Source of the DNA: Hartmannibacter diazotrophicus
GTDB lineage: Bacteria > Pseudomonadota > Alphaproteobacteria > Rhizobiales > Pleomorphomonadaceae
Reading direction: 5' to 3'
Assembly: GCF_900231165.1 (NCBI RefSeq)
Contig: NZ_LT960614.1
Location: forward strand, 3,907,501-3,971,500
DNA length: 64,000 nt
In this document: in pieces, positions 11,935-42,884 of the stretch
Position numbering within the stretch: the stretch's first letter is position 1
How the letters are laid out: the number at the start of each line of letters is the position of its first letter
Position numbers and translations under genes: made by a program
The notes under the pieces: model-generated
Told to the model about the DNA's origin: nothing
Database searches by the model: none
Seen by the model: the letters and a program-made list of their open reading frames with translations, nothing else

Positions 11935-12075
11935 GAAATCCTCTGATGACGTCAAATGTCACGCACGGTCGTCCACGACCGCCGCGACGGGATGGCGGCG
12001 TGCGGAGAGGACCGACATGGCGGCTCGTCAGGAGCCGTCAGAGGGGCCCGGGCCTCGGGCTGATGATGGGTGGCG

Positions 12076-18426: not shown

Positions 18427-18600
18427 GTCAGGGAGGAAGCAGGCGTGCCACCTCGGCCGTTGGAAGATCGATCCCGGGAAACCTACAGCGTAGGTGGGCG
18501 CCGTTTGCCCAGGCCCACGAGCCCAGGCAGAGACAGCTCCCTTTTGGATCGATAAGGCCCCGGGGATAGTGATTCCTGACGCACCGCGCAGCAACGCCTG
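18427..18600 (-). ncRNA. ssrS: 6S RNA (ssrS), alphaproteobacterial type
   Basis: On the minus strand the ends pair GTCAGG (18580-18575) with CCTGAC (18432-18427), and an inner stem pairs ATCGATCC with GGGATCGAT around a large internal bubble. The blocks GGGGCCTTATCGATCC, GGGAGCTGTC and CCTACGCTGTAGGT are those I associate with alphaproteobacterial 6S RNA. The gene lies directly downstream of zapA on the same strand, its usual place. A TATATT box at 18612-18607 would give a start near 18600. It inhibits the sigma70 holoenzyme by mimicking an open promoter. Exact ends are estimates. Confidence 0.8.
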
Positions 18601-40746: not shown

Positions 40747-41283
40747 TCAGTGCTTGTCGAATGCCGATCCGAAGGCGTTCGAAAGCTGCTCCAGCTGTCT
40801 CGAAACGGGATTGGACCCCGGCTGGGCGACGGGCGAATAGATCGCATCGTCGAGATAGCGCACCCGCTCCAGAAGGCGGAAAGAGCGCGCGATGAGATCC
40901 CTGAGCTCCACCGGCAGTTCCGACCAGTCGGCATGGCGCTCGGCCATGATGCCACTGTCGAGACGGACCTTGGCCTTCTCCTCGCCGGCCTGGGCCTGGC
41001 TGATCTCGCCCTCGTTGACCGCCCGCTGCAGCAGCAGCCAGGACGCCATCTGCATCAGACGGGTGGTGAGGCGCATCGATTCCGTGGCGTAGACGAGAGA
41101 GGCCGAACGACCCAACTCCCGCGACTGTTCGCGCCCGATACCGTCGAGATAGGCCGCGGTCTCCTCGACCAGCGACATTCCCTCCCGGAACAAATCCCGA
41201 AAGGTCTGTGATCCGGCAAACCGTTGCGCGAAGGGAATGGCCTCCGGTTCGCGCCAGTCGACGTCTTTCGTCCTGTCAGTCAT
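40747..41283 (-). CDS. rcdA: RcdA/DUF1465 family protease adaptor
   Basis: A 178-residue helical protein of DUF1465, the family of Caulobacter RcdA, an adaptor that helps ClpXP degrade the cell-cycle regulator CtrA. The core FRDLFREGMSLVEETAAYLDGIGREQSRELGRSASLVYATESMRLTTRLMQMASWLLLQRAVNEGE and the C-terminal RSFRLLERVRYLDDAIY are typical. The disordered tail after residue 150 is short. A perfect CtrA box lies 199 bases upstream, consistent with CtrA-driven expression as in Caulobacter. Confidence 0.9.
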   Translation of the reverse strand: MTDRTKDVDWREPEAIPFAQRFAGSQTFRDLFREGMSLVEETAAYLDGIGREQSRELGRSASLVYATESMRLTTRLMQMASWLLLQRAVNEGEISQAQAGEEKAKVRLDSGIMAERHADWSELPVELRDLIARSFRLLERVRYLDDAIYSPVAQPGSNPVSRQLEQLSNAFGSAFDKH

Positions 41284-41481: not shown

Positions 41482-41497
41482 TTAACGAAAAGTTAAC
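41482..41497. promoter_or_regulatory. Perfect CtrA-binding box upstream of rcdA
   Basis: TTAACGAAAAGTTAAC fits TTAA-N7-TTAAC with no mismatch on the plus strand and TTAA-N7-TTAA on the minus strand. It lies 199 bases upstream of rcdA, whose product in Caulobacter acts in CtrA degradation. Confidence 0.75.
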
Positions 41498-41564
41498 GCC
41501 CGTGAACAGGCGCGCGCATGGACGGGCGGATTGGGCGGATCAGGCGGATTGGGGCGGGGAGAAC

Positions 41565-41655
41565 AAAAAAGAGCCGCGACAAGCGCGGCTCAGAGTAGAC
41601 AGGGAGGCGTCAAATGAGTGACGGGAGCCACTCGAAGATCCAGAAGTCTGGACAA
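41565..41655 (-). ncRNA. Candidate small RNA with C-rich loops and intrinsic terminator
   Basis: On the minus strand three hairpins follow each other: TCCAGA/TCTGGA (41652-41639), GAGTG-GCTCCCGT-CACTC (41633-41616), and a terminator GAGCCGCG/CGCGGCTC with six T (41591-41565). The second loop exposes CUCCC and the linker before the terminator holds GCCUCCCUG, anti-Shine-Dalgarno-like sequences typical of trans-acting small RNAs in alphaproteobacteria. No coding gene lies upstream on this strand that could own the terminator. The 5' end is a guess; a CtrA-like box lies just upstream. The remainder of 41284-42167 has no gene. Confidence 0.6.
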
Positions 41656-41676
41656 GATGATCAATAACTTAGAAAG

Positions 41677-41692
41677 GTTAACAAGGCGTAAA
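41677..41692 (-). promoter_or_regulatory. CtrA-like box upstream of the candidate small RNA
   Basis: The minus strand reads TTTACGCCTTGTTAAC, one mismatch from TTAA-N7-TTAAC. It sits about 25-35 bases before the first hairpin of the candidate RNA, where a CtrA-activated promoter would have its box over the -35 region. Confidence 0.5.
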
Positions 41693-42167
41693 ACTGCGAA
41701 AAATTCCGTGTTAATACGCAGCAAATGACATTGGCATGTTCAAGAGACGAAGTTGAGACGTCCGTCCGGCAACACATGATCCGAAGTTGATGCAAGAGGC
41801 AGATCCCAAACAGCTTTCTTGAGAAAGAGGAATCCGGCTGCCGATGCTCTGCAGCGACAGGAGCGACGAGCAGGGAGAATTTCCAGCCGCCGGCGGATCA
41901 AGTTGTCCCCGCGCGCCGGGAAGAAATTCGGCCGTGATCTTGTCGCCGTCGACCAGGAATTTCTTTCCCGCTTTCTTGGTCTCGCTGGGTCACCAACGCC
42001 GTCATCGGCTCCGCAATCATCCGGACCGAAAGATGTCGCCTCCGCGCCCCTGTTTGAAATTGCGTTTCGCCGCGCATGCCGTTATACAGCGGGCATTCCC
42101 CAATTCACGATTGGAACCGCTATCGCCCAGCCGCTGACCCGGCCGGGCCACCTGGAGGACTTTACCC

Positions 42168-42884
42168 ATGGCCAACGCCCCACTGATGCCAAAGGCCACC
42201 GCGGTCTGGCTCGTCGAGAACACCGCGTTGTCCTTCGAACAGATCGCCCAGTTCTGCCGACTGCACCCGCTCGAGGTGAAGGCGATCGCGGACGGCGAGG
42301 CGGCCCAGGGCATCAAGGGTCTCGACCCCGTCCAGACCGGCCAGCTCACACGCGAGGAAATCGACCTTGCCCAGCGCAATGTCGGTCACAAGCTGCGCCT
42401 GGCCGAACCGAAGGTCCGCGTCCCGGAATCCAAGCGCAAGGGACCGCGCTACACGCCCGTCTCGCGCCGCCAGGATCGCCCCAACGCCATTCTCTGGCTG
42501 GTTCGCAACCATCCGGAACTGAAGGACGCGCAGATCATGCGCCTCGTCGGCACCACCAAGCCGACCATCGCGCAGATCCGCGACCGCACGCACTGGAATT
42601 CGGCGTCGCTGACGCCGATGGACCCGGTGACCCTTGGCCTCTGCTCGCAGATCGAACTCGATCTCGAAGTGGAGAAGGCCGCCAAGAACCTGCCGCCAGC
42701 TCCGGTCGAATCGCCCTCGCTTCTGCCCGTCGACGACACGACCTCGACGGACGCCCTCGCCGCCTTCGGTGCCCGCACCGCGCAGCGCGAGGAAGAAGAG
42801 GAAGAGATTGACGCCGCGGCCGTCTTCGCCAAGCTCAACGCGATGCAGCAGAAGCCGTCCGAGGACGACGAAGAGGATAACTGA
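42168..42884 (+). CDS. trcR: Cell-cycle transcriptional regulator TrcR (DUF1013)
   Basis: A 238-residue DUF1013 protein, named TrcR in alphaproteobacterial annotation. Two similar helix-turn-helix-like parts are visible: KATAVWLVENTALSFEQIAQFCRLHPLEVKAIADGEA and NAILWLVRNHPELKDAQIMRLVGTTKPTIAQIRDRTHWN. A linker with RLAEPKVRVPESKRKGPRYTPVSRRQDRP lies between, and the C-terminus is strongly acidic. The ATG follows GGAGG at nine bases. It is transcribed alone and ends at the terminator 42911-42940; it faces away from rcdA. Confidence 0.9.
   Translation: MANAPLMPKATAVWLVENTALSFEQIAQFCRLHPLEVKAIADGEAAQGIKGLDPVQTGQLTREEIDLAQRNVGHKLRLAEPKVRVPESKRKGPRYTPVSRRQDRPNAILWLVRNHPELKDAQIMRLVGTTKPTIAQIRDRTHWNSASLTPMDPVTLGLCSQIELDLEVEKAAKNLPPAPVESPSLLPVDDTTSTDALAAFGARTAQREEEEEEIDAAAVFAKLNAMQQKPSEDDEEDN

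Follow-up and report, generated by a model that had tools for sequence, protein, structure and literature searches.

BjrC1505 (Rfam family RF02356) is reportedly a small RNA (sRNA) of Bradyrhizobium and Rhodopseudomonas, a description credited to Madhugiri et al. 2012. The literature searched, with most subscription texts and the supplements outside its scope, contained no statement tying RF02356 or BjrC1505 to the cell-cycle regulator CtrA or to a function. A precedent for the general idea of a CtrA-activated sRNA is CcnA of Caulobacter crescentus (PMC8959179; this and the other papers given by PMC number are cited from the accessible part of their text). Here, we describe an RNA on the minus strand between rcdA and trcR in the window, the whole 64,000-nucleotide (nt) stretch of Hartmannibacter diazotrophicus DNA that was analysed (contig NZ_LT960614.1). 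The analysis establishes its membership of RF02356, its covarying structure, a CtrA-type box and a -10-like element at fixed spacing, and its linkage to rcdA within the order. We consider it highly probable that this RNA is the BjrC1505 sRNA of a Hyphomicrobiales bacterium, forming its own transcription unit with a promoter activated by CtrA.

The window RNA was compared with the described sRNAs closest to it. CcnA also directs a C-rich loop at G-rich 5' untranslated regions, but it is an RNA of 182 nt encoded at the replication origin, and its targets are ctrA and gcrA (PMC8959179), with which the window RNA showed no consistent pairing. EcpR1 (SmelC291) is likewise a rhizobial sRNA tied to the cell cycle, but it lies beside rpmG, presents the loop UCCGCCGCAUCU and is controlled by the stringent response (PMC4414408), whereas the window RNA lies elsewhere and its sequence lacks UCCGCCGCAUCU. 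GspR (SmelC775) is a three-hairpin sRNA linked to CtrA, but it is found only in Sinorhizobium, lies at another locus and represses ctrA mRNA, and the accessible text reports no known promoter signature before it (PMC5928217). MmgR (RF00519) resembles the window RNA in a CCTCCCT stretch followed by a terminator, but its confirmed locus and three look-alikes lack a CtrA box within one mismatch. Scored as an MmgR member, the window RNA reached 21.4 bits, under the cut-off of 41, and this assignment was rejected.

The Rfam covariance search matched positions 41564-41701 of the window to RF02356 with 65.7 bits (cut-off 50), and the window RNA shares both sequence and structure with that family. The earlier note, made without database searches, had proposed a small RNA at this place. 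The match and the stability of the fold bear this out, but the sRNA itself is not new, since it belongs to a known family. The H. diazotrophicus genome has a single copy of RF02356. Of 297 genomes sampled from the order, 245 gave a match to the family (212 above the cut-off); none of 14 named control genomes, Caulobacter vibrioides among them, did. Read from 41692 to 41565, the minus strand begins with the CtrA-type box and the -10-like element TATTGA; hairpins 1 and 2, both clear, come next, then the weak hairpin 3, and last the terminator with its six T. The three hairpins (terminator included), the T-run, the one-mismatch box and the perfect box nearer rcdA described in the earlier note were all found where it had placed them. 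Because the only neighbours are rcdA, downstream, and trcR, pointing away, no coding gene upstream on the minus strand can own the RNA, as that note had also stated.

For the 91-nt stretch, the predicted folding energy is -34.7 kcal/mol (z = -5.69), a stability that none of 200 shuffled sequences reached. Over 71 homologues, two-sided changes were observed at 17 of the 25 pairs, compared with 5-9 for slid controls, and 96.4% of cells pair, compared with 38-43% with slid partners; the alignment used for these counts was fitted to the covariance model and thus leans towards its structure. In the same 71 sequences, such changes occurred at all six pairs of hairpin 1, at four of the five pairs of hairpin 2 and at five of the eight pairs of the terminator. 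The compensatory changes, together with the RF02356 match, uphold the structured RNA of the earlier note. They also bear on a possible role of the transcript as a small mRNA. Some homologues do contain short frames opening with ATG or GTG, but among 56 loci, 11 had no closed ATG or GTG frame inside the RNA, 28 had a frame of at most 7 amino acids, and the longest frame, 29 amino acids, was seen in one locus. Given these frames and the two-sided base-pair changes, a coding transcript appears extremely improbable.

Whereas the stems vary freely, the C-rich stretch is kept. Among the 77 named loci defined below, CTCCCTGT is present in 75, CCTCCCTGT in 57 and TTTGACGCCTCCCTGT in 47, and the 18 loci with CTCCCTGT only belong to named Rhizobium, Shinella, Neorhizobium or unclassified Hyphomicrobiales. 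Two unpaired C-rich stretches, the loop of hairpin 2 and a linker, had been put forward as seeds. The conservation of the linker fits this proposal, but the hairpin-2 loop varies in several lineages. Nor does the fold leave both stretches unpaired as drawn: the CCTCCC linker lies within the small third hairpin (41611-41598), and the hairpin-2 loop is reduced to UCCC. The conserved stretch has the look of a seed, yet it also resembles a generic anti-Shine-Dalgarno sequence.

The conservation of the CtrA-type box was examined in three sets of loci. In the RF02356 loci, a box within one mismatch was present in 41 of 41, 17 of them perfect, compared with 0.7% of 2270 control windows of 120 positions. 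However, the Rfam model itself spans the box region, within its first 40-odd positions, so that this count alone would be circular; an RNA-only covariance model, without the promoter, was built for this reason. Its alignment (A3) leaves out two of 41 sequences (L056 and L062), in which the first hairpin is rearranged or missing. The RNA-only model matched the window at 41564-41656.

For the second set, 80 named loci were picked by a neighbouring RcdA, not by the box, although some of their genomes are shared with the training or RF02356 loci (for example, L033/L196 and L068/L211), so that this set is not entirely independent. In 77 of them, the model located the RNA on the rcdA strand, upstream of the gene (E 1.6e-21 to 0.005). 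The remaining three were left out of the box count: L198 is truncated, L253 gave no match, and L264 matched on the other strand. Immediately upstream of the RNA, 76 of the 77 loci have a box within one mismatch, perfect in 49, compared with 44 of 8200 control windows of 80 positions (~0.5%). Counted from the start of the model, the box lies at -36 in 51 loci, at -35 in 15 and at -37 in 7. The match in L264 (2074-2171), a Bradyrhizobium metagenome-assembled genome (MAG), is on the strand opposite rcdA, unlike the 77 other named loci; it represents an inversion or a misassembly.

For the third set, the RNA-only model was run over 385 genomes of the class and gave matches in 41. Outside the order, 31 of 41 matches, in 15 families, carried a box within one mismatch, 15 of them perfect, compared with 14 of 2815 control windows of 80 positions; this count drew on 44 of the 45 match rows, the row of the window itself being left out. 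CtrA is encoded in all 12 genomes searched, that of H. diazotrophicus included, where the protein is 93% identical to a CtrA-type query, an approximate value because the query was typed from recall. The box at its fixed position in 76 of 77 named loci and in 31 of 41 matches outside the order argues strongly for the CtrA control proposed in the earlier note, and suggests that CtrA switches the sRNA on. We infer that a known RNA family here has a well-conserved CtrA promoter not previously assigned to it.

Some genomes outside the order carry more than one copy of the RNA. Genome G670 of family f155 has two tandem copies 200 nt apart (L109 3015-3097 and 3215-3297), each with its own perfect CtrA box; G504 of the same family has three matches, at contig ends (L108 and L111 also belong to the f155 observation). 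Genome G297 has two separate copies (L088 and L110), each with a perfect box.

When the 77 loci were aligned on the box, TTAAC-N6-TTAAGCTTT was followed by a TATTA-like element at +26 to +31 and by the first hairpin at about +40. This spacing places the transcription start at about +38 from the first base of the box, so that the 5' base of the box would lie near -38; in the window, the predicted 5' end of the sRNA is at about 41654. In Caulobacter, a full CtrA box activates when its 5' base is near -35, and the box of ctrA P2 is at -39 (PMC4287350). A box about 38 nt before the predicted start would thus occupy the activating position, as in Caulobacter, and in the window a CtrA-type box with one mismatch is found there. 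The spacing further suggests that the early part of the RF02356 model, which Rfam counts as RNA, is probably promoter.

In the mechanism that we propose, phosphorylated CtrA (CtrA~P) would occupy the box, some 38 nt upstream of the start, and help RNA polymerase to initiate at about 41654; the transcript would end at 41565, without reaching rcdA. With a length of about 90 nt, it would fold into three hairpins and the terminator and leave exposed the conserved C-rich stretch GACGCCTCCCTGT, which probably pairs with mRNAs at G-rich ribosome-binding regions when CtrA is active in the cell. Alternatively, CtrA might bind the box but repress the sRNA, or leave it uncontrolled, and act on rcdA, trcR or DNA architecture; CtrA binding without a transcriptional effect on rcdA has been reported in S. 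meliloti (PMC4433202). However, a repressor site is hardly suggested by a box at the activating position and not over the -10, and a box without bearing on the sRNA would not be expected to keep its distance to the RNA (-36 in 51 of 77 loci, -35 to -37 in 73 of 77), also in families with other neighbours. We regard this alternative as unlikely.

The relation of the RNA to rcdA was then considered. Within the order, rcdA is present in 38 of 40 fetched sRNA loci and trcR in 22 of 40. Of the eight RNA-bearing genomes searched outside the order, G337 and G463 encode RcdA at a distance of about 41 kb, and G375, G575 and G652 on another contig; in G353 and G479 it lies 1.5 and 3.4 kb downstream of the RNA on its strand, and G297 gave no match to the RcdA family search. 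By tblastn, 13 of 29 oriented sRNA loci had no RcdA within about 1.5 kb. A trcR-like frame was recognised by eye about 1.6 kb from the sRNA in L124 (1727-2491; family f93), a locus from which rcdA is 41 kb away.

These arrangements bear on whether the RNA belongs to rcdA as a 5' leader cut short by termination, in which case the CtrA promoter would serve rcdA by read-through and the short RNA would be an attenuation product. The same strand and order of RNA and rcdA in 77 of 80 named loci, together with the 38 of 40 fetched loci, would be expected of a leader, as would the lack of a second box within one mismatch before rcdA in 41 of 77 named loci. The agrobacterial rcdA, for which several start sites in all three lineages and CtrA sites further upstream than in Caulobacter are described (PMC10469942), would also fit. 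However, six of the eight genomes outside the order have RcdA about 41 kb off, on another contig or not found; the terminator covaries; and S. meliloti CtrA binds the rcdA promoter region, yet rcdA is unresponsive to CtrA depletion (PMC4433202). Because the RNA lies far from rcdA in several lineages, it is not simply an rcdA leader, and we hold the attenuation model to be improbable. The several agrobacterial rcdA starts and upstream CtrA sites would fit an sRNA start mistaken for an rcdA start. In the window, rcdA is probably served by the second, perfect box. The perfect box before rcdA pointed out in the earlier note is present, but it is lineage-specific, being perfect in 22 of 77 named loci and within one mismatch in a further 14; among the loci that lack it are ones from Stappia and Bradyrhizobium.

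The published S. meliloti data can be read in the light of an sRNA promoter. Pini et al. reported a CtrA chromatin immunoprecipitation signal at rcdA, with rcdA unchanged on CtrA depletion (PMC4433202). In strain Ak57, two perfect boxes 174 bp apart precede rcdA, and between them lies a diverged RNA (28.6 bits) ending in a terminator. Transcription that starts from an sRNA promoter and ends short of rcdA would account for CtrA binding there with no response of the gene. By the box rule, the predicted homologue is 100 nt long, and it lies near 6S RNA, which is on the opposite strand. SmelC671/Sm84 is also 100 nt long and lies near 6S RNA on the opposite strand, is expressed in nodule zone II, and has no predicted promoter motif in the accessible listings (PMC7143759, PMC2873474). 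The distances to 6S RNA differ by 1.3 kb, being 13.0 kb for the homologue in Ak57 and 14.3 kb for SmelC671 in strain 1021. In a 2-kb scan, the only strong plus-strand terminator was that of the homologue, with a weaker one inside rcdA, and no terminator was found where equal spacing would place SmelC671. Distance, length and terminator scan, with no tie in sequence, make SmelC671/Sm84 the probable S. meliloti member of the family. CP090106.1 (L102), a 3.7-Mb S. meliloti record labelled pSymB, carries rcdA, rpmE, 6S RNA and zapA and looks like a chromosome or a fused replicon.

Targets of the RNA were sought by duplex prediction and by sequence pattern, and none was found. The earlier note had envisaged a new regulatory loop with RcdA, the adaptor for CtrA degradation. 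The synteny is kept in the order, but neither rcdA nor ctrA nor gcrA pairs consistently with the RNA, so that nothing but the linkage speaks for the proposed feedback on CtrA. Most likely, the RNA would act by repressing mRNAs whose ribosome-binding sites are G-rich, in cells with active CtrA. A perfect AACAGGGAGG before an ATG occurs at 12 places in three of five genomes, and a longer target pattern was matched in 87 of 249 genomes, with some matches representing the opposite strand of the sRNA itself (for example, in G205). Several proteins downstream of AACAGGGAGG sites resemble transporter binding proteins by eye. Genome G216 (family f35) contains seven GcrA-family matches.

Several observations weigh against a CtrA-activated BjrC1505 sRNA. 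The members from loci named Rhizobium, Shinella, Neorhizobium and Sinorhizobium have diverged strongly and score 24.8-35.0 bits, with the exception of one MAG labelled Rhizobium (93.6 bits). Outside the order, 10 of the 41 matches have no box within one mismatch: a member of the RNA family with a two-mismatch box (L075), one at a contig edge (G504c), four with an MmgR-type core (L100, confirmed as RF00519, and G338, G560 and G428, assigned by likeness), and four unassigned, three of which are from one f85 genus. Some of the 31 box-bearing matches are weak (33.8-36.4 bits; f137, f177, f186 and f165), the box lies at -12 in L101 and at -25 in L092, and the upstream box in the window itself carries one mismatch. 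The published CtrA binding in S. meliloti is not assignable to one box, because the two boxes are 174 bp apart. For ctrA and gcrA, only 3 of 24 duplexes predicted in 12 genomes had z < -2. For rcdA, the mean z was -0.27, with z < -2 in 2 of 56 loci; 70 of the 77 loci had entered this test, and 14, mostly with divergent Rhizobium-type RNAs, were skipped.

The f85 loci L118, L120 and L121 carry an RNA with a terminator and GTGAAGCCTCCCTGTCAGACT, without a CtrA box, which is perhaps a different RNA sharing the C-rich core.

CtrA is a likely controller of this hitherto orphan sRNA family. If this is true, a very conserved CtrA-type promoter of the group drives an RNA and not a protein, which would add a post-transcriptional layer to the master cell-cycle circuit, and would offer a reading of a published puzzle, the binding of CtrA at an rcdA gene that does not respond to it (PMC4433202). 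A broader proposal, for and against which we see the case as evenly balanced, is that RF02356 is an ancient, CtrA-activated RNA arm of the CtrA regulon in Hyphomicrobiales and up to 15 further sampled alphaproteobacterial families, that its C-rich seed silences a set of mRNAs in CtrA-active cells, and that the CtrA sites credited to rhizobial rcdA are wholly or partly its promoter.

Table. Features of the sRNA locus and its neighbours, in window positions.
Feature	Position	Strand	Basis
CtrA-type box TTTA-N7-TTAA, one mismatch, upstream of the sRNA	41678..41692	-	sequence; homologous boxes in other loci
-10-like element TATTGA	41661..41666	-	+26 to +31 from the first T of the box; stretch conserved over 77 loci
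Predicted sRNA transcript, about 90 nt, RF02356 BjrC1505	41565..41654	-	Rfam and RNA-only model matches; promoter spacing
Hairpin 1 (TCCAGACTTCTGGA)	41639..41652	-	fold; two-sided changes
Hairpin 2 (GAGTGGCTCCCGTCACTC)	41616..41633	-	fold; two-sided changes
Weak hairpin 3 / C-rich stretch GACGCCTCCCTGTC, likely seed	41598..41611	-	fold; conservation in named loci
Intrinsic terminator, stem 41591-41571 and six T 41570-41565	41565..41591	-	sequence; fold; two-sided changes
Second CtrA-type box, perfect TTAA-N7-TTAA, between terminator and rcdA, 213 nt before the rcdA start	41482..41496	-	sequence
rcdA, adaptor for CtrA proteolysis, downstream neighbour	40747..41283	-	NCBIfam ProtaseAdptRcdA, 215.6 bits (cut-off 170)
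trcR, cell-cycle regulator, divergent upstream neighbour	42168..42884	+	Pfam TrcR, E 2.4e-66

Two further RNAs were matched on the minus strand of the window, a 6S RNA at 18442-18597 (RF00013, 75.4 bits), about 23 kb from the sRNA, and a terC RNA element at 12003-12059 (RF03067, 51.1 bits, cut-off 39.9).
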